A stretch of 64,000 nucleotides of DNA, from contig NC_089430.1 in NCBI RefSeq assembly GCF_026210795.1, positions 5,704,001-5,768,000 of the forward strand. Reading direction: 5' to 3'. This DNA comes from Rhizophagus irregularis. Lineage: Eukaryota; Glomeromycota; Glomeromycetes; Glomerales; Glomeraceae. Within the stretch, counting starts at the first letter, position 1. Each line of letters begins with the position of its first letter. The notes under the pieces are model-generated. The model saw only the letters and a list, made by a program, of their open reading frames with translations. It was not told the origin of the DNA and made no database searches. Of the stretch, positions 17,197 to 33,727 are shown one piece after another. Both the position numbers and the translations under genes were made by a program.

Positions 17197-19685
17197 ATGG
17201 ATACGTTACTTAAAAAACTAACCCCAAATAAGAAATGCGTTAAATGTAAATTTAAATGTAACTCAATATATTTTCAACAAAATTTCAAAAATTGGACTAG
17301 TGGTAATGAATATATTGATAAATTTATTCAAGATTCTCAAGTATTATCTCATAAGAATTATAGATCAAATTTATTAGAATGGATACCATATGATAGATTT
17401 CATAACATCAGATATATTGAAAACATTGGAGTGTATAAAGCAAATTGGATTGATGGATATATTCATTATTGGGATTATGTGACTAAAGATTGGAGAAGAT
17501 TTGATCAAAATATGTTTGTTACTTTGAAACTTTTAAATGAACCAAAAATTATTGCATTAGAATTTAAAAATGAGGTAATGATATATTTTTTTATTTTAAT
17601 TAATTTTTGAAAAAATTTTAATTTTTACAAATATAATATATGTGTAGATTAATATACCTTGCGGAATAACTCAAAATCCACAAACAAAAGATTATATGAT
17701 GGTGTTGCGTGATAAATGCAAACAATGTATTTGCAAATGTAATTCAATATACTTTAAACAAAATTTTGGGAATTGGACAAGTGGTAATGATGATATTGAT
17801 GAATTTATTCAAAATACTCAACTATTAGCTCATAAGAAATTACCAGTATCTGATGTATTAGAATGGATACCTTATAATAGACTTAATAATATCAAATATA
17901 TTGAAAGAAATGGATTGTATAATGCAAATTTAATTGATGGATGTATATGCAAATGGAGTGTACTTTACCAAAATTGGGAAAGAGAAAATCAAAATATGTT
18001 GGTAACTTTAAAATATTTAAATAACCCAATAAATGTTACGGAAGAATTCATGAATGAGGTATAATAATTTATTATTTAATTTTAAGTTTTGAAAATTTTT
18101 AATTTCTATTAATACAGTAATATTATATTTTGTAGATTAAAATAGATTATGAATTTTATGGAATAACTCAAGATCCACAAACAAAAAATTATATGATTGT
18201 ATTGAGTGATAAATGCAAAAAGTGTAATTCAAAATGTAATGCAATACACTTTAAGCAAAATTTTGAAAGTTGGACTAGTGGTAATGATGTTATTGATCAA
18301 TTTATTCAAGATAGTCAGCTATCAGATCATCATAATGATGTAAATGAAGCATTAGAATGGATAAATTATGATAGATTTAATAATATTGAATATGTTTCAA
18401 AGGGTGGATTCGGTGAAATATGTAAAGCAAATTGGATTGATGGATGTATTGACAAGTGGGATAATATAAATCAAAATTGGAAAAGACATGATGAAAATAT
18501 GGTAGTAGCTCTGAAAAGTTTAAATCATTCAAAAAATATCACATTAGAATTTATGAACGAGGTATGAATAATTTATTACTTAACAAAAACTTTTTAATTA
18601 TTGTAGTTTTTAATATTATTTTTTTTTTTGCCTTTATATTATGTAGATGATACTTCATCATAAATTAGATTCTAATTATAAAATTATTAAATTCTATGGA
18701 ATAACTCAAAATCCGGAAACTGAAAATTATGTAATGGTTTTAGAATATGCAGATGATGGAAGTTTACGAAAATATTTGGACACAAATTTTAATAAATTAC
18801 TTTGGAGAAATAAATTTATTTATTTATATGATATTATAAATGGGCTTAGATTTATTCATGAAAGCAATTTGATTCATCGAAACTTGCATAGTGGTAATAT
18901 ATTAAAGCTTAAATATAATGCTGCTATAACTGATATAGGATTGTGCAAACCTGCAAATTGTAATGTACAAAAAAATAATATATATGGTGTTTTGCCTTAT
19001 ATAGCTCCTGAAATTTTACGGGGACAAACTTATACTCAAGCTGCTGATATTTATAGTTTTGGTATAATTATGTATGAAGTAATTTCTGGTTTACCTCCTT
19101 TTTATGATTTAAGTCATGATGAATATTTGGCAATAAAAATTTGTCAAGGACTTAGACCAAGATTTGATATTAAAGTACCTCAATTAATTGTGGATTTAAT
19201 TAAAAGTTGCTTAGATGCAAATTTATTAATGAGACCAAAAGCGGAAGAAATTAGAGATATTTTATACATATGGCGATGTGAATTAGCTAGCAAACAAACA
19301 ACAGAAATACAAAAACAAATTAAAGAAGCAGATGTAACAAACAACAATTCAAATTACAGTATATCTTCAACGTGTTTAGGATTATCATATAAAACACATT
19401 CAGAAGCTATTTATACAAGTAGATTGCTTAATTTTGATAATCTTCCTGAACCAAAAAATTCCGATGATTTTTATGAACAGAATGATAATATAATTAGCAT
19501 TGAATCTTCAGGTACTGTTTAATGAAAAATTATTTAAAATAATTATAAAATAATACTAACAAATTATTACTTATTAAGTAGTATTATTATCTCAACAAAT
19601 TAACGTTTCTCAATTGAACATTATTAATCTCCCTGAACCAAGAAATTCTGATGATGATTATTATGAACAAAATGGTAATATATAG
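17197..19685 (+). CDS. TKL-type kinase with three tandem N-terminal modules, probable pseudokinase
   Basis: Five exons (17197-17574, 17648-18058, 18136-18561, 18647-19511, 19582-19685) form one open chain of about 727 residues with GT..AG introns. Exons 1-3 each encode a copy of the same module: K-C-x-x-C-like cysteines, Q-N-F-x-x-W-T-S-G-N, L-E-W-I-x-Y and a kinase N-lobe. Only the third copy has an intact Gly-rich loop (G-G-F-G-E-I near 353) and A-L-K (K389). In copies one and two the loop has collapsed to N-I-G-V-Y and R-N-G-L-Y, although T-L-K remains. Exon 4 is the C-lobe, with H-R-N-L-H-S-G-N in place of HRD (N484), T-D-I-G and A-P-E. Exons 2 and 3 start with I-T-Q-x-P-Q-T-K, the strand that normally opens the C-lobe exon, so the array arose by internal duplication. 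The final tail exon ends at TAG 19683-19685; a further decayed tail exon follows near 19740-19790 without an AG. Confidence 0.85.
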
Positions 19686-21052
19686 TAAGTATATAGAGAT
19701 TTATAAATACTAATAAATTTATTTTGTTATATAAATCTTTACAAATTGATAATTTCTCAATTGAATCTAACAAAGATGGTAAATTGTAAGTTATACGATA
19801 ACTTATACTATATTATTTTTCAAGATACATTTTCGCATCATAATTTTTTTTTTTATTATGATTTTAGAATTTGATTTTTTTTTCAATAATTGGATTGCAA
19901 CTTTATCTATAAGATTAAATTTGGTATGGCGGTTTAAGGAAAATGAAAATATCATTAGATAGATCTTTTAATTGTAATAATTTTTCAATTAAATAAAAAT
20001 ATAAAGTTTAGACTATAAATGTAATATAGGTCCCGTTCTTTGTATTGTATATAACAACTGAATTTTTTGTATTAAGATTTCAATGCAAATTTTCAATTAC
20101 AGTAGTTAGGATTATGAAGCCTATTTCTAATTAAAATATGATACAAGGGATCACAAACATCATATTAATGTATGTATATATTAATAAAATTACTATAATT
20201 ACTACGCCAAAAAATTAGTTGGCATCGCCGTATTGATTAAGGAAGCGGCAGGGATCTTTGCATCTCCATCAGCAAAATATTGTACAAGAAAAAAAAATAA
20301 TAAAAAAAAAATTGTAGTATCATAATAGAATAACGGAACCGTTGATAAAAATAACTATTTACAATTCGTACAAAGTTGATAAAATTGAGAAAATTTTACT
20401 AATTTTTGCAAATAATCATCTTTAATGAAGTTAAAATTTCGAATTCCAAATTGTAATAAGGATTTGTAAATTTTCTCAACACGTTTGTGATTATAATTTT
20501 TGAAAGACGTCCAATCAATATTTATGCGGCAAATAAAACTACAATTTCGTCATGTTAAAATTATGTGTCGTACCAAATGATAAACCCAAAAAAAATTTTA
20601 ATTAAATATCATTCCATTTTGATTTCTTTAACGCCAAGTACTTGTGTAACGTTCATCATACGGTGATCTATCCGTCTATCGGAATAGTTTTCGTTGTTCA
20701 TTTATCAAATACATTGATAATTCGGAGTAAAATCCTGTAAAGGAACTAAGCCCATGAAATTATTGAAATTATTCAACTTGTTTTGCTTATATAGAATCTT
20801 TTATATCATTATATTTCGCAACATTTAAAAAATTTCGTGTTATTATTATCACGTTCTTGATTCACGTTAATTTTTTTTTAATATTTAATATTAATGTCAA
20901 AATACGTCAAAATACGGATTCTTTTTTATATAAGTCATGATAACAGAAGTTTTGAATGATGTATTAAATAAATATAGAGTTAAATATATATATAAAGTTA
21001 GTCGCTATAATAAATAAACTTTGGAATTCGTCACGATAAAATGAAATATTTG
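19686..21052. other. AT-rich intergenic region
   Basis: This contains the decayed extra tail exon of the kinase (about 19730-19790, ending G-K-L-stop). At 20181-20212 there is a copy of a motif ending ATTACTACGCCAAAA that also occurs near 30885-30915. Otherwise no gene. Confidence 0.5.
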
Positions 21053-22461
21053 TTAATGTGGTATTCTTTTTTTCCTAATATTAACTAATCTGCCTTTATA
21101 ATCAAATATATGAGGCCCGGATTTTTTATTACTAAACCTCTTTTTACGACATTTATAATAACCACATTCTGGGCAATATCCATCCGAGCTTCGATAAGAT
21201 GGCCGGCATTTACAATATGAATAATTACAATGTCCACACCAAAGTTGAATCTATTTTACAAAATAAAAACAATAAAAGAATATTATAAAATGATAAAATG
21301 AATGATTATACACGCTTTTTCTTACTTGTCCTTCAGGATTGTTTTCTTGATTTTTAAGCTCGTTTTCTACAAATTCTTTTTTAGAGTTACGTTTTTCAGT
21401 TTCATCTTGCCTTTCAGATTCTTTAAGTGGTTTATCTACAAAAACTTCTCAAAAGTCAGTGAAAATATCCAGTATTGAAAGCGTGTGTTGTCCAGAATAT
21501 TGTATAGTTATGAACGGGTTGCAAAAGCTGTGGAGGATACCACTCAGTACAACCTACCTTCGGGCTTATTTTCTTCAGAATTATGTTTTTCAGTTTTGAG
21601 TTGTTTATCTACAAAAACTTATCAAAAGTCAGTGAAAATGCCTGGTGTTGAAAGTGTGTGTTGTCCAGAATGTTATATAGTCATGTAAACAGGGTTGCAA
21701 AGGCTGAATAGGGACTGGAGGATACCACCCAGTACAACCTACCTTCGGGCTTGTTTTCTTCAGAGTTATGTTTTTCAGTTTTGAGTTCTTTAATTGGCTT
21801 ATCAACAAAAACTTCAGTGAAAATGCCTGGTGTTGAAAGCATGTGTTGTCCAAAATGTTATATAGTCATGTAAACAAGGTTGCAAAAGCTGAATAGGGAC
21901 TGGAGGATGCCACCCAGTACAACCTACCTTCATGCTTGTTTTCTTCAGAGTTATGTTTATCAGTTTTGAGTTCTTTAAGTGGCTTATCTACAAAAACTTC
22001 TCAAAAGTCAGTGAAAATGCCTGGTGTTGAAAGTGTGTGTTGTCCAGAATGTTATATAGTCATGTAAACAGGGTTGCAAAAGCTGAATAGGGACTGGAGG
22101 ATACCACCCAGTACAACCTACCTTCAGGCTTGTTTTCTTCAGAGTTATGTTTTTCAGTTTTGAATTGTTTATCTACAAAAACTTCTCAAGTCAGTAATAT
22201 GCCTGATGTTGAAATCATGTGTTATCCAGAATGTTGTATAGTTATGTAGTCACGTAAACAGGATTGCAAAAGCTGAATAGGGACTGGAGGATACCAGTAT
22301 AACCTACCTTCAAAATAAACTTTCGTTTGTACTTTTCTTTGTTTTTCTTTCTGTTCCTTTTCTAACAATTTCTCTAGTAATTTTTTTTTTCTTGCTCTTG
22401 TAATTCCTCTTACATAATCTTTACATTGCTTAAAAAAAGAGCGGGCTTTTTTTCGAGCCAT
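21053..22461 (-). CDS. Small Cys-rich (zinc-ribbon-like) protein with tandemly duplicated exons
   Basis: I do not recognise this family. Read on the minus strand, exon 1 (22308-22461) starts at an ATG and encodes a Lys/Arg-rich helix, M-A-R-K-K-A-R onward. It ends in phase 1. Near-identical phase 1-1 exons follow: 22122-22172 (51 nt), 21928-21987 (60 nt), 21743-21802 (60 nt) and 21558-21608 (51 nt). Each encodes D-K-x-x-K-x-x-K-T-E-K-H-N-S-E-E-N-K-x-E. Next come a longer relative (21328/21326-21435, 110 nt) and a last exon (21053-21250) with C-G-H-C, C-K-C, C-P-E-C and Y-K-C, a likely zinc-binding module. The introns are also near-identical, so exon plus intron was copied as a unit of about 185 bp. 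The copy at 21743-21802 has lost its acceptor AG and is probably skipped, which keeps the frame. The protein is about 155-175 residues. Charge and cysteines suggest nucleic-acid or protein binding; that is a guess. Confidence 0.75.
21440..22310. repeat. Tandem exon-plus-intron array, unit about 185 bp
   Basis: Four full units lie head to tail, with spacing between exon starts of 185, 185, 194 and 173 bp. Each intron copy carries GTAGGTTGTACTGGGTGG at its donor side and CAACACACTTTCAACACC in its middle. Differences are single substitutions and a 9-bp exon length variant (51 or 60 nt). Introns are as conserved as exons, so the expansion is recent. Confidence 0.9.
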
Positions 22462-23939
22462 TTTTTTTCAATGATAAAATATTTCTATATATTGCCTAAT
22501 GTTGTTAAATCCGATGCTGTTAAAATCCGTTAAAATCCGTAAAAATTTTAGTTCCGTAAAAATTTTAGTTTGGAGAAAAAAGGTTTAGCAGGAGCTTTTA
22601 TTTTATACTCTCAGTACGTGAGTGAATAATACGGTTTTATCATTACTCATTAGATTATGATTATTGTTATGTAGTACGATTGAATAATGTGGTTTGAAAC
22701 TAAGATAATAACATAATATGTGTCATGACAAAACATGACAAATATCATAGTATGTAATAAAATAATATTATATTATTATGCAGCCAAATAGGATCATGTT
22801 GTTTTTAACATACTGATATTTTTTAGATAAACTATTATTGCGTGAATATCTTCAATATTTTTGACGCATTACGTCATATAGATTATTATCACACATTTAT
22901 TATGCTTTTCATATGGAACATGATCTTGGCCGTCTGCATAATTAATAGTTATTCGGCACGAATTTATGAATAATAATTTAGCGCAAAAATAAACTATTAT
23001 ACAATAATTGAAGAGATAATAATTATATGTAAATTTATATTATAAAAAGGAATATAAAAATAATAATTAAAATTACTAAAAAAAAATTGCGAAATTACAA
23101 ACCTAAATTTTAAATTTAGTACAGTATTATACATACATTCTCAATCACATTGAAATATTGGAAATATTTGATATGTAATTTGAATGATATTTGGATTTTT
23201 GGACTATTTTTTACATATAACGAATTTTATTATAATTTTTTAATGAAAAATTAACGTGTTAAAGGCGATCAGCGCGAATTTACATCATGGATAATCAAAG
23301 ATTTAGCTTTGGAATCCTGGTAATTAGTTTCAAGTGTTTCAAAAACTTTCTTTTTCTTTGTAGGATGCTGGCTAACTTCATTACCAGAATCCTGAAAGTA
23401 AGCTCTCGAAATAATTGGTAACTTTCTTTTTTAAAAACATTATTAAGTCTTATTTATTAATTTATACATTTTTTTTCCTTTTTTTTTAAGGAAGCGGCTC
23501 CAACTTGGATATATCGGAATTTAGTCAATTCGGAGATCTCCGTTTTTAGAAAGAAAACATTTATTACTAATAATGTATTTTACATTTATAGAACAATGTA
23601 TATTAATAAAACATTTTACATTTATTGACAGAATAATAATAGATTTGAAGATCTCTTTAATATCTCCTAAATAAAGTTTAACAACTAATTTAAAATAAAT
23701 TTACTTTTTAATATATGTTTACTATAACTCAAACATATATTCATTATAACTTAAATATGCGTTAACTATAACTTTAATTTGCATTTTACGATTTCAATAC
23801 TATTTTTGTACGACCCGATTAGATTTTCTTAATATACAGTAACTTTATACATGCGATTGTCTTGAACTTATCGTGGCGATGTGAAACCATATCGTGACCA
23901 AGTCTTGATTATAAGGTCTATGATAAAATTTCAACTTGG
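22462..23939. other. Intergenic region between the tandem-exon gene and the channel gene
   Basis: AT-rich, with no supported gene. Two splice-like segments on the plus strand (about 23365-23396 and 23492-23545) have AG and T-tract boundaries but no continuing frame. They may be non-coding or chance. Confidence 0.45.
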
Positions 23940-26900
23940 TCATGATATGGTTCCAATTTTAAAGTTTTGCAAAGTTTTTCTAATTTCTCTAATTTCTTCT
24001 TTTAAATTATCTAATTTATCATCGTTAGATTTTAATTTCTCCAACATTAGCTCATTGTCAATAGGATTATGTTTAATTTGAAGTTCTTCTAATAATTTTT
24101 CCCGCATCTCTGTGAATTCCTTAGTATCCCATTCACCTTCTTTAATCAATCTTTTAATTTCTATTCGAGTCTTATCAACATCGGCATAGTAATGTCTTGA
24201 AAAAAATAAATTTTGAATAATTAATAAAATCATGACATTAAATTTTTTTTTAAAGTAAGATTACATACATTACTTCAGGAAACCATGTTTGCCAACGTCT
24301 CTGATATGGTAATAGGTAAAATAACTCAATCTCAGCCAAAATCTAAAAGTTGAGATATATTAGTATATTTACAGAAATAGAATGATTAATAATATTATTA
24401 TTTACCTCTGCCTTTTGCATCAAATATGAGACTCTATTATTATTTTCTTCAATTGCATTGCTGAGTAGTCCAATTAACAAGTTCATAAGATATATAACAA
24501 TTAAAAGAGAAAATAAAACAATCAATATTGCAATTGATGGATTGTCAGCATATGGCCAATTGGATAATGCGCTTGAGTCACCTATTGATATGAAAGAAGA
24601 ATTGCTTAAAAATATTAGAAAAAATATTTATGTAATAAATTATGAAAAATTAGATATACCTGCTAAAAATAAATACATAGCAAAAAGAGAAGTTCTAAAA
24701 TCTATAAACATGTTTGTATTTTTATCAGGAATTTGAAACATAAATGGATTGGAATTGATATTTCCATCATTATCAATTTGACTATAACTAGGAGCTAAAT
24801 TCCAAGGATTATTTGGATCATTATTATGTTGATCAAGTGAAAATTCAGATCTTGGTGATAATAAAATATAAAATGCATGTGCAAAACTTATTATAATAAT
24901 GAATAAGACTAATAAAAAAGAAAAAATCTTTTTTCCAACACTAATAATAATTGCAAAATATACACCAAAATATTCAAATGCTCTAAAAAATAATAAAAAT
25001 TTTATATCTAAAAATAAGCATGAAAAAGAAAGCAACTGAATTAGATAATTATCATTCTTATTATTTGTTTGAAGCCAATAAATAGAAGTGTAAATTGAAA
25101 GCACATAAGCAATTATATCTGAAATATTAAAATATTATATAATTAATTTTATTTTCTTAAACTATTGTAAAATAATTAAATTAAACATTTATATTTACCA
25201 AAAATATTCCAAAAATTATAGAACCACTTAATAATATTATAAAAAAATTGACGAATTTCTAAAATCAGATGAATAAATCCAAGTATGATCGAAGCAATAA
25301 AAAGTTGTTGTTTAACTTCTTCATTGATATATTGTTGGGGTACTGTTGCAGCAGCAGTAAAGCATCCAAGTAAAGACATGAATAAAATCCAAATCATTGC
25401 AAAATAATATTTTCCATAAGCATTCCATTTAAAATTAATTAATGCTTCTCCACTCCATGTTTTATAGATATTCCTATTTATTGTTTCAGTAAATAAACTA
25501 GGTTGAGGTCTAATTAATTCTAAAAACCAATTGTAATCTCTTGAATAATTAACAAAATTAATATAGGGAACAATAAAAGTAATTGTTGGTGTTGTAGTTG
25601 TCATATTATCTTCAAAAAATTCAAAAACTTTAAAAATAATACGTACAGCAAGGAAATAAACATAAGAAAATGCATCTGAAGCGTAAATATTATTGATAAA
25701 ATTGTATTTTGATAAAATATAAAATGTAACAAAATAAAGGGGTAAAGTTAAAAGTATTATTAAAGCTTGAGTAACACATATAATTAACCATATAATAGAA
25801 GTAGTAACTGATAATAATTTCAATTTACGATGGAATTTTGTCCATAAAAGAGATTTCGATAAATTAGCTAATTGAGGATATTGAGAAAAAGAATAAAGAT
25901 GTAAATTTTTATTTCGATGCTTTATGCTATAAAAAGGAGAATCTATGATCATATTCGTTTCTGATGAATATTTTAGAATATATTCCGGATAATATTTATC
26001 TAGTAATGGCATTGTGGAAGTGATAATGCTTAAAAATGACTTATTGTTAATTAAGTCCTCTTTAAAATAAGTCATACATTTTTTATAATTATCATCAATT
26101 AATTCTAAATTATGTTCTTTAATTGCAAATGTTAATAATCCAACTCCATATTTCAAAAGACTTGTCTTATTATTTATTACATCTGAATTCCATCCATTTA
26201 ATCTAAAACTATTATAATTTGGTAATGGTAAAGTAGATTTTAAAAAAATTTGGAGTGATTTCATACAATCTTTATATCTTATAATGTCATGATTGTTAAT
26301 GCTATTTTTATATCTATAGTTCTCTAAATTCATATAATAAAAATAGTTTAAAAAAATAGATTTGTCTTTTTCGCTAGATTTGTTATTATCACTAGATTTG
26401 TTATTTTCATTAAAAGTATAAATAAGAATACCAAAATTTGTCAATATAACAATATCATCGTTATTAAATAATGAGCTTGCAATTAATATACAATAGTAAT
26501 CTTTAAATTTATAAGGATGATTTTCAATTCTTGTGCTAATTGATTCCCATTCAGTATTAATCCTTCTGAAAACTTCTAGTTTAATTTTTTCATTATCAAC
26601 ATGTACATCCCATTTAATTAAATTTCCAGTTAACTCAGCTGATTTTTTCACTTCACTATCACCATTATTTCTTATGGCTTTTTGAAATAATGTAAACACA
26701 GTACCCATATATAGATTAAATGAATAAACATTTAAGTGTTTATAAGTTTTCTTGTTGATTTTATCATGATCACCAAATTTAATAATTTTATTATTTTCTT
26801 TATTTAATTCGTTAGAATTTTCAGGTGAAAAGTTTGTTGACATCTTTTCTTCAAATTTAGATTTCCAAACACGTCCATTTAGAATTCCAAGCACAAACTT

Positions 26901-28217
26901 TGTTTGCTCATCAGTTAGTACATAAATTGGGTCAGTGCCAAAAGTAACATAAGTTAGTTTATAAGTTGATTTATCAAATAAAGTTTGATTAAACACATTT
27001 TTGTATTTACTATTCCAGCAATATTTGATTTCTTTATCTGGTGTATAATAGAATACAGAAGGTAAAAGAAATAAATCAGTATGATTCATAAAATTATATA
27101 GTTGAATATCTAAATAAAAAAATGATGATTTAATATGAGTAATAATTAACGTATAAAATAAAATTTATTAAAAATGGTTACCATCATTTATATCCAAAGA
27201 AGCAATAGGAATTCCCAATTCGATTGAATAAACAATGATAATTTTATACTGGATTTTTAGAAAAATCAACTCTTCATTACTGAATATTCCGATGTTTTTT
27301 GTTTTAAACTAAAAAATAATTAGTATTTAATATATTTAATTATAACTTAACACTGATTGGTTTGAAAGTAATTTCATAATATTTATTACCTTATAAGTTC
27401 TATTCTTATTATTAACAAATATTTTTACACTTTTCTCAGTATTAATATTCCATTCATAAATGTAATCATTTTCATCTGAATACAGGTAAACTTTATCATA
27501 TTTTGATATACTAATTAATTCATAATCTTCAGGTATCATATAAAATCTCTTACATTCCCATTTGTTATTTTTAGTTTGTGTGGAATAAATCCAAATAATT
27601 TTATGATCATCTTCAGAAATATCATCCTTTACACTATATAAAATAAATTCACTTTTTAAATTAAAGGCACAATAATAAGCATCTTCTGTATCTAAATTTA
27701 ATGTAATTTTTTTATCTTTGTTATTCATATCGATTACTAAAAAAAATATTAAAATAAATATCAATTACCATAATTTAATAATTACATAACCAAATAATTA
27801 TTACTTACAAGTAATAGCATTATAACCATTATTATAATATCTAATAATATAAGCAAGTTTCTTATCATCAGAAACACATAAACTTTTGATTTCACATTTA
27901 TCTTTTTCATCAATTTTAACAGTTTGATGAAATTTAAGTTGAACCTTATCTATATTTTTAACATTCCAACCGATAATTGAACGATCTTCTTTACTATAAG
28001 TAATAAGGTAGTTTTCACTTGGTGATATTTCTATCATAATAATAGATTTACTATTATGTCGTTCATCATCGATATCATCGAAGGTAAATATTTTATCAAC
28101 ATCATTTTCATCAACATCGATCTTATCAAAATCTATTTTATCAACATCAATTTTATCAACATCGATTTTATCGATTTTATCAATATCGTTAATTTCGATT
28201 ACTGAATTGTCACTCAT
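23940..28217 (-). CDS. TRP-like ion channel with beta-propeller-like N-terminus
   Basis: Eight exons on the minus strand (27809-28217, 27390-27736, 27182-27308, 25199-27109, 24660-25118, 24406-24581, 24269-24342, 23940-24195) give 1,252 residues with every junction in frame. The N-terminus has a D-K-I-D repeat (residues about 11-42). Blades resembling WD repeats follow (for example S-I-I-G-W-N-V and Y-I-Y-E-W-N-I), then a long soluble region. The C-terminal third is membrane-embedded. Hydrophobic segments begin at S-I-I-W-L-I-I, F-A-M-I-W-I-L, L-F-I-A-S-I-I, and two or three more before the pore. The pore loop reads L-F-L-A-G-D-S-S, and the last helix L-M-N-L-L-I-G-L-L-S-N-A-I resembles S6 of TRP channels. 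A charged coiled coil (E-E-I-R-E-I-R-K) closes the protein. This fits a cation channel of the plasma or vacuolar membrane; ion selectivity cannot be read. The G-D of the pore is created by the exon 5/6 junction, which supports that splice. Confidence 0.87.
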
Positions 28218-32983: not shown

Positions 32984-33727
32984 TTAATTAATAAAATTAT
33001 TCTGGCATATTTCACAAAAGCATGAATCGATAGAAAAAAAGTTTATATTAATTAAATCATCTACTACTGGTGTAGAAAGTTGGTAATGATTGAAATTTAA
33101 ATCATCTACTGGTGTAAAAAGTTGGTAATGATTGAAATTTAAATCATCTACTGGTGTAAAAAGTTGGTAAGGATTGAAATTTAAATCATCTACTGGTGTA
33201 AAAAGTTGGTAAGGATTGGAATAAGGGATTTGAATGTTACTTGAATTAACATTTAAGGTAACCTCAGGATATAGTGAGTCATAAAGTTGGTAGGAAGGAA
33301 CAGAAAGGATTGGAATGTGTCTTGGACTAACAACATTGTTGTACTCGGTAACTCCGGATGGTGAGTTATCTTGTAGGTCCAGAGACAATGACTCATTGAC
33401 AAGAACTAATTTTTCCTTCCGCCTTATTTCCGTTAGCCGATTTTCCACTTGTTCAGATAGATTCTTATAAGCATCTCTTACTGCAGTCGTTTCATTGAAC
33501 CACATCGAACTAATGTAAGATGATATTTTTGTCATAGGCACATTGTCATTGGTTCGTTTTCTAAGTTCTTTGAGGAAAGCTAGTCTGTATATGAAGTAAC
33601 TGTTGGGAGCCCTCGACTTAAGTCTATCTTCTGACCTATTGCTCAAGATCTCTTCAACTGTCAGTTCTGGTGGAAATGGTACTTTAAAGAGCGGAATTTC
33701 ATATTTGGTTGATTTTTTAACGTTCAT
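32984..33727 (-). CDS. MATA-HMG-type HMG-box protein with tandem C-terminal repeats
   Basis: This is a single-exon gene of 247 residues, a putative DNA-binding regulator that would act in the nucleus. The HMG box covers roughly residues 37-103, from S-R-A-P-N-S-Y-F-I-Y-R through M-T-K-I-S-S-Y-I-S-S-M-W to A-Y-K-N-L. This matches the mating-type-like (MATA_HMG) subgroup, which is greatly expanded in AM fungi. Residues 173-229 contain four 14-residue repeats, Y-Q-L-F-T-P-V-D-D-L-N-F-N-P/H, encoded by a near-identical 42-bp tandem array (about 33050-33222). The last copy is diverged. The C-terminus has C-F-C-E-I-C, a possible metal-binding touch. The start is the only upstream ATG consistent with the box. 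A mating role is not implied for an individual paralogue. Confidence 0.88.
   Translation of the reverse strand: MNVKKSTKYEIPLFKVPFPPELTVEEILSNRSEDRLKSRAPNSYFIYRLAFLKELRKRTNDNVPMTKISSYISSMWFNETTAVRDAYKNLSEQVENRLTEIRRKEKLVLVNESLSLDLQDNSPSGVTEYNNVVSPRHIPILSVPSYQLYDSLYPEVTLNVNSSNIQIPYSNPYQLFTPVDDLNFNPYQLFTPVDDLNFNHYQLFTPVDDLNFNHYQLSTPVVDDLININFFSIDSCFCEICQNNFIN
33050..33222 (-). repeat. 42-bp coding tandem repeat inside the HMG gene
   Basis: Four in-frame copies, three of them almost identical at DNA level (shared TCATCTACTGGTGTAAAAAG on the plus strand). The identity includes silent positions, so the expansion is recent and copy number may vary between isolates. Confidence 0.92.

Follow-up and report, generated by a model that had tools for sequence, protein, structure and literature searches.

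In the window (the whole stretch of 64,000 nt analyzed here, C2:5704001-5768000), the minus strand at 22461-21053 carries what is quite probably an intact protein-coding gene, hereafter W, belonging to a small family whose genes gain and lose copies of a single intron-plus-exon unit through tandem duplication. Within this unit, as far as sequence comparison with relatives can tell, the intron looks like the inherited part and the exon like the variable part. The splicing and expression of W are read from frame and splice-site logic, under which seven predicted exons join into a reading frame of 227 amino acids without an internal stop. The predicted features, in the direction of transcription, are as follows.

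22308..22461, minus strand: exon 1, 154 nt, with the start codon and a basic head (MARKKARSFFKQCKDYVRGITRARKKK...); it ends in phase 1, and related heads occur in locus L006 and, weakly, in L011 (z 4.0).
22173..22307, minus strand: intron 1, 135 nt, the first copy of the repeated intron.
22122..22172, minus strand: exon 2 (unit exon 1), 51 nt, phase 1-1.
21988..22121, minus strand: intron 2, 134 nt, with 98.5% identity to intron 4.
21928..21987, minus strand: exon 3 (unit exon 2), 60 nt, phase 1-1.
21803..21927, minus strand: intron 3, 125 nt, ending in TTG, not TAG, with 9 nt gone near the presumed branch site and a possible acceptor AG ending at 21812.
21743..21802, minus strand: exon 4 (unit exon 3), 60 nt, phase 1-1, predicted to be skipped or to be 9 nt longer in frame.
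21609..21742, minus strand: intron 4, 134 nt.
21558..21608, minus strand: exon 5 (unit exon 4), 51 nt, phase 1-1.
21436..21557, minus strand: intron 5, 122 nt, a shortened copy of the repeated intron.
21326..21435, minus strand: exon 6, 110 nt, a diverged and enlarged fifth unit, phase 1-0, with 76.5-84.3% identity to exons 2 to 5.
21251..21325, minus strand: intron 6, 75 nt, with no resemblance to the repeated introns.
21053..21250, minus strand: exon 7, 198 nt, with the conserved Cys-rich tail and the stop codon.

The array at the center of W consists of exons and introns that were duplicated together. Unit exons 2 to 5 share 86.3-93.3% identity (6 pairs), and the five repeated introns (135, 134, 125, 134, and 122 nt) share 85.8-98.5% identity at aligned positions (10 pairs). 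Tandem Repeats Finder reports the array with a period of 185, 4.7 copies, and a score of 1146, which is far beyond chance. The original prediction, which described four near-identical phase 1-1 exons of 51 or 60 nt with near-identical introns, had both coordinates and phases right, and its proposal that a single exon-intron unit was copied in tandem is well supported, with paralogous loci that hold 1, 1, 1, 2, and 3 units compared to four in W. The phase symmetry that it pointed to also holds for exons 2 to 5, so that either a change in copy number or the skipping of an exon leaves the frame intact.

Internal tandem copying is seen a second time in the window, at 17197-19522, where three successive ORFs follow a tandem period of about 497 nt (2.4 copies, Tandem Repeats Finder). 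Each of these ORFs opens with a short Cys motif and then F..(N/S)WTSGN, and a kinase ORF (Pfam PK_Tyr_Ser-Thr) lies downstream. Elsewhere, at 33064-33222, a 42-nt tandem repeat (3.8 copies, 97% match) is located within a 247-aa minus-strand ORF that has a weak HMG-box match, below the Pfam cut-off. A 637-aa minus-strand ORF at 25176-27089 has no Pfam match and appears, by eye, to be part of a multi-exon membrane protein.

We searched the organism's own genome (146.7 Mb in 32 contigs) at the DNA and protein levels and scored the best candidates, so that the number of family members given here is a minimum. Five close copies of W (L001-L005) have 3, 1, 2, 1, and 1 units, respectively, ahead of the terminal unit, where W has four. 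All five contain frame-disturbing gaps, four of them contain in-register stop codons, and the 4.5 kb fetched for L003 yielded nothing that matches the last exon. Some of the single-base gaps in A-runs could be assembly errors, which is a less easy explanation for the in-register stops and for the deletions of 11 and 19 nt. Four more loci, L007-L010, hold pieces only. In L004 (1806-2134) and L005 (1799-2130), about 330 nt are inserted at the identical point of the unit exon, and thus these two loci probably descend from one copy.

Introns 2 and 3 are identical in L001; in L003 they are identical at aligned positions (129 vs 135 nt, with a 6-nt gap), and introns 2 and 4 of W differ at only 2 of 134 sites. 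Near-identical introns at these three loci point to recent copying or conversion. The mean similarity of the W introns is 0.905 among themselves and 0.907 to the introns of L002, and the clade of W introns has 60% support; within-locus copying therefore was not recent for all units. The best reading of the family is one of birth and death, with growth by tandem exon-intron duplication.

A second intact gene, L011 on C5 (minus strand, 2437-1720), encodes 151 aa with an architecture like that of W and a unit exon of other sequence. Its basic head and its Cys-rich tail, which is without the last intron, are joined by a single phase 1-1 exon of 72 nt between two introns. The two introns (150 and 112 nt) are identical at 107 of the 111 positions where they align and, by eye, lack an AG 9 nt ahead of the acceptor. 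Two relatives of L011, L016 and L017, are without an intact tail frame (by eye). The intron of L017, at 1425-1873, contains minisatellite units of 84 nt and ~14 nt (TTTCTGGACAACA), and similar repeats are visible by eye in the intron of L016, at ~1000-1500. Given these minisatellites, the C5-type intron also amplifies without its exon.

A third lineage is represented by L006, on C29. With a head of 193 nt (phase 1, no stop) and a middle exon of 71 nt, it has to omit the middle exon for the tail to fall in the conserved frame; the gene may be spliced without this exon, or be broken. More distant Cys-rich tails are encoded at L013-L015. One of these tail-bearing distant relatives, L014, has a two-copy protein repeat (ELNDTTMDQAPHESPNA) within a single ORF (minus strand, 2017-2346), and the intron upstream of it (minus strand, about 2480-2930) has ~60-nt repeats with GGAGAARTCTCC.

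To judge from the ratio of nonsynonymous to synonymous change, purifying selection acts on the Cys-rich exon (dN/dS 0.15-0.26; dS saturated). Specifically, dN/dS for the tail is 0.145 between W and L006 (58 codons; 0.235 with a gapped alignment), 0.235 between W and L011 (53 codons), and 0.264 between L006 and L011 (52 codons), all with saturated dS values above 1. The tail pattern is C-x2-C-x4-C-x-C-R-P-x6-8-C-x2-C-x4-C, with the second Cys absent in one of six sequences, and 11 tail positions are invariant in six sequences, six of them Cys (the broken L016 was left out). The head exon of W compared with that of L006 gives a dN/dS of 0.58.

The predicted protein has a pI of 9.4 and no hydrophobic stretch (highest 15-residue mean hydropathy -0.03), and of the 111 residues of its spacer, 24 are K and 26 are E. 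The K/E/N-rich spacer is probably disordered and the Cys-rich tail is probably zinc-binding. With low confidence, the basic head and the Cys cluster together suggest a putative small zinc protein that binds nucleic acid or protein. A Pfam search with the whole protein and with the tail (E up to 10) returned four matches, all under their cut-offs, a PDB sequence search with the tail only had a best E of 0.32, and an AlphaFold2 model of the tail alone (pLDDT 53.5) was too poor for a fold search. The profile search of the last exon that had been proposed earlier thus yielded nothing credible in Pfam or PDB, but it did uncover the family within the genome. It is also very unlikely that the tail derives from the N-terminal Cys module of the many kinase-like genes of this genome. 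C-x2-C and K-x-F-S-N...S-G appear similar by eye, but a profile comparison gave a probability of 1.7% (E 0.029) over 18 columns that include the last Cys position only, and the search that suggested the likeness used a chimeric query, hence its matches are biased.

Because its five close relatives are broken, W could be on the same path. In the extreme, W itself would be a decaying copy (a pseudogene) whose frame is open by happenstance, a reading that we consider improbable. It draws on the frame-disturbing gaps and in-register stops of the close copies, and on intron 3 of W, which has lost its AG. W nevertheless stays open for 227 aa over seven exons, and the tail dN/dS of about 0.15-0.26 against L006 and L011 also argues against decay. 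Furthermore, the only gap among exons 2 to 5 is a single one of 9 nt, whereas 24 of the 32 gap events in the introns are not multiples of three (10 pairs, which are not independent); in the four pairs that involve exon 6, however, this is true of 8 of the 14 gap events. The state of the paralogs also bears on the original prediction of a linker whose length varies by copy number. Unit number does differ among loci, but the five close paralogs in which it varies are all broken, so length variation between working proteins comes down to W and the one-unit gene on C5.

Introns usually lose similarity long before exons do. Between W and L011, the repeated intron is alignable where the unit exon is not. 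We scored these comparisons against dinucleotide shuffles, with z values that shift with the shuffle sample. Using 300 shuffles, introns 2 and 4 of W scored z 13.5 and 12.7 against L011, comparable to a tail z of 13.3, while the head scored 4.0 and one unit exon 0.3; the flanks of the two genes are not alike (z -0.5 for 200 nt upstream and 0.3 for 200 nt downstream). Using 200 shuffles, introns 1 to 5 of W scored z 7.6, 11.2, 10.5, 11.1, and 9.2, and no similarity was detected between exons 2 to 6 and both unit stretches of L011 (z -0.2 to 1.9, 10 comparisons). Intron 2 of W and intron 1 of L011 are identical at 101 of 128 positions without gaps, where the shuffled mean is 0.68. Against L006, the introns of W scored z 15.7-22.4 and the unit exons z -0.3 to 3.3 (five comparisons). 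The unit exon of L006 is still weakly recognizable, and thus the contrast between intron and exon comes mainly from one pair, W and L011.

Parts of the intron can be traced further. The 5' block of the intron is present in L015 on C31 (z 3.4-8.7 against the five W introns; 0 or 1 of 1000 shuffles), and the presumed exon that precedes it is unlike W (z -1.1 and -0.4). L014 has a weaker version of the block (z 4.3, 4.3, and 1.1 with mononucleotide shuffles). The blocks GGGTG-R..YCTCC and TATTCAGCTTT are found in W, L006, L011, and L015, and CACTGAC in W, L006, and L011. A narrow pattern drawn from the intron block occurs at 49 places in the genome, compared to 3 for the reversed control, and 23 of the 49 are at family loci or fragments. 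We rejected GGGTGG...CTCC as a genome-wide intron motif (150 places vs 60 for the reversed control); among the matches listed, up to part of C21, most of its places are outside the W family.

One interpretation, which we put forward tentatively, is that the intron is a selected, inherited core and the exon is expendable, with the phase-1 intron repeatedly seeding units whose coding sequence changes fast between a fixed head and a fixed tail. Exchange between loci, rather than constraint, could be partly behind the similarity of the introns. The absence of flank similarity between W and L011 argues against recent copying of a whole segment, and not against short conversion.

Another way to account for the introns would be that they are mobile or introner-like elements that inserted repeatedly, the exons being what lies between insertions. 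This we hold to be scarcely probable. The introns are indeed near-identical, minisatellites are found within those of L016 and L017, and a fragment of the intron occurs on C16 (L027), with no match to any further part of the C5 gene in the 3.2 kb fetched. Repeated insertion does not fit with exons that were copied along with their introns, nor with the intron search itself, in which 23 matches (best candidates scored) are at loci with other pieces of the gene. The exception is L008 on C19, which has the intron and about 15 nt of the adjoining exon. Among the best candidates scored, we found no near-identical introns at unrelated genome sites, the one fragment without a matched gene exon being that on C16.

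Neither an RNA fold nor an Rfam family accounts for the conservation of the intron. Excess folding was not detected in any of the four single introns tested (z 0.25 to 1.09), RNAalifold on 15 introns predicted 23 pairs, one of them with a double change, and Rfam gave no match at gathering over the whole window. A known RNA hosted in the intron is not supported, as Rfam on 20900-22700 up to E 5 returned four matches (three snoRNA-like and one Streptococcus sRNA), all far below their gathering scores. Hidden coding sequence was rejected, based on a stop in the joined frame in all five repeated introns, with another frame judged by eye only.

Intron 3 of W is the exception in its splice signals. 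It ends in TTG, and an AG end is present in 22 of the 23 family introns compared, a count that is not independent since the intron ends were set partly from these same signals. The intron has also lost 9 nt beside CACTGAC, which in the repeated intron probably holds the branch point. Without the AG, exon 4 is probably skipped, or entered at an in-frame AG 9 nt upstream. Skipping is permitted by phase and gives a predicted protein of 207 aa; the upstream AG would add three residues (V-F-V) in frame. An in-frame AG 9 nt ahead of the acceptor is a feature of the repeated introns of W.

These features raise the question of whether the array serves regulated alternative splicing, with varying inclusion of unit exons providing a set of spacer lengths that is kept by selection. 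We regard this as rather unlikely, although several observations are consistent with it: the four unit exons are all phase 1-1, the repeated introns offer the in-frame AG, the introns are recognizable in relatives, and exon 4, with its damaged acceptor, can be skipped without loss of frame. Phase symmetry, however, is needed by any viable tandem exon array. Moreover, the intact gene on C5 has one unit only and introns without an AG at that distance (by eye), and the four introns tested for RNA folding showed no excess. Growth and loss of units by tandem duplication thus stands as our preferred reading.

Tandem exon copying is already known elsewhere as a means of lengthening repeat proteins, and the unusual part of W is the combination of a conserved intron and a changeable exon. 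Davis and colleagues reportedly described tandemly repeated 81-base exons in Schistosoma mansoni in 1988, which, as in W, consist of one short exon in tandem. We found no description of W among the matches listed in the open-licence literature, including that on this fungus and on arbuscular mycorrhiza. Micro-exon genes (MEGs) encode signal peptides, and most of their exons have lengths divisible by three, with introns that range from 100 to almost 5000 bp (PMC10526429). A length that is a multiple of three is common to both, whereas W differs in its Cys-rich tail and its recurring short intron.

A closer likeness is found in the LRR genes of Tetrahymena, which, according to excerpts of the published account, contain arrays of 90-bp exons of equal phase, with unit numbers that vary between close paralogs and for which unequal crossing over was proposed (PMC6564038). 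Like W, these genes have exon/intron repeat units of equal phase that are variable in number among paralogs. In the same excerpts they are exactly 90 bp, phase 2, LRR-encoding, and present in thousands of genes, unlike the phase 1 units of W, which are 51 or 60 nt and occur in a handful of genes. No LRR match was found in the W protein with Pfam.

The SP7-like genes of arbuscular mycorrhizal fungi encode effectors that are secreted into plant cells. As described in excerpts of PMC11333574, they have imperfect hydrophilic repeats after a conserved intron and paralogs scattered over chromosomes, and they encode proteins with an N-terminal signal peptide and 6-11 repeats whose ends carry the motif Y[KR]Rx[AP]x[AP]. 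We considered whether W is such an effector and find this extremely improbable. W comes from the same probable organism, has a basic head and imperfect hydrophilic repeats, the first of which is preceded by an intron as in the SP7-like genes of those excerpts, and has paralogs on several chromosomes. Its N-terminus, on the other hand, is not hydrophobic (highest 15-residue mean hydropathy -0.51 for windows starting at residues 1-20), so that a signal peptide is not apparent by hydropathy, the excerpted motif is absent, the repeats number four to five, and there is a Cys-rich tail that the excerpts of PMC11333574 do not describe for SP7-like proteins.

For the turnover of units we infer unequal exchange as the mechanism. 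Unequal exchange between near-identical adjacent introns would add or remove whole units, and because the unit exons are phase 1-1, each event would gain or lose 17 or 20 spacer residues while leaving the basic head and the Cys-rich tail unharmed. The common intron would hand splice signals to every new unit, and the phase-1 intron ahead of the spacer would be the ancestral fixed point of the family. Given that the intron is recognizable in the C5 relative and the spacer exon is not, the intron probably carries both the splicing signals and the homology that seeds arrays.

If the intron is indeed the inherited core, then the system would generate variable protein spacers with the intron as its anchor. 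The retention of intron over exon in comparison with the C5 relative opens a way to test if selection can maintain introns as a stable, recombining frame for a protein region that evolves fast. Such a system would offer mycorrhizal fungi a concrete route to protein-length variants without frameshifts.
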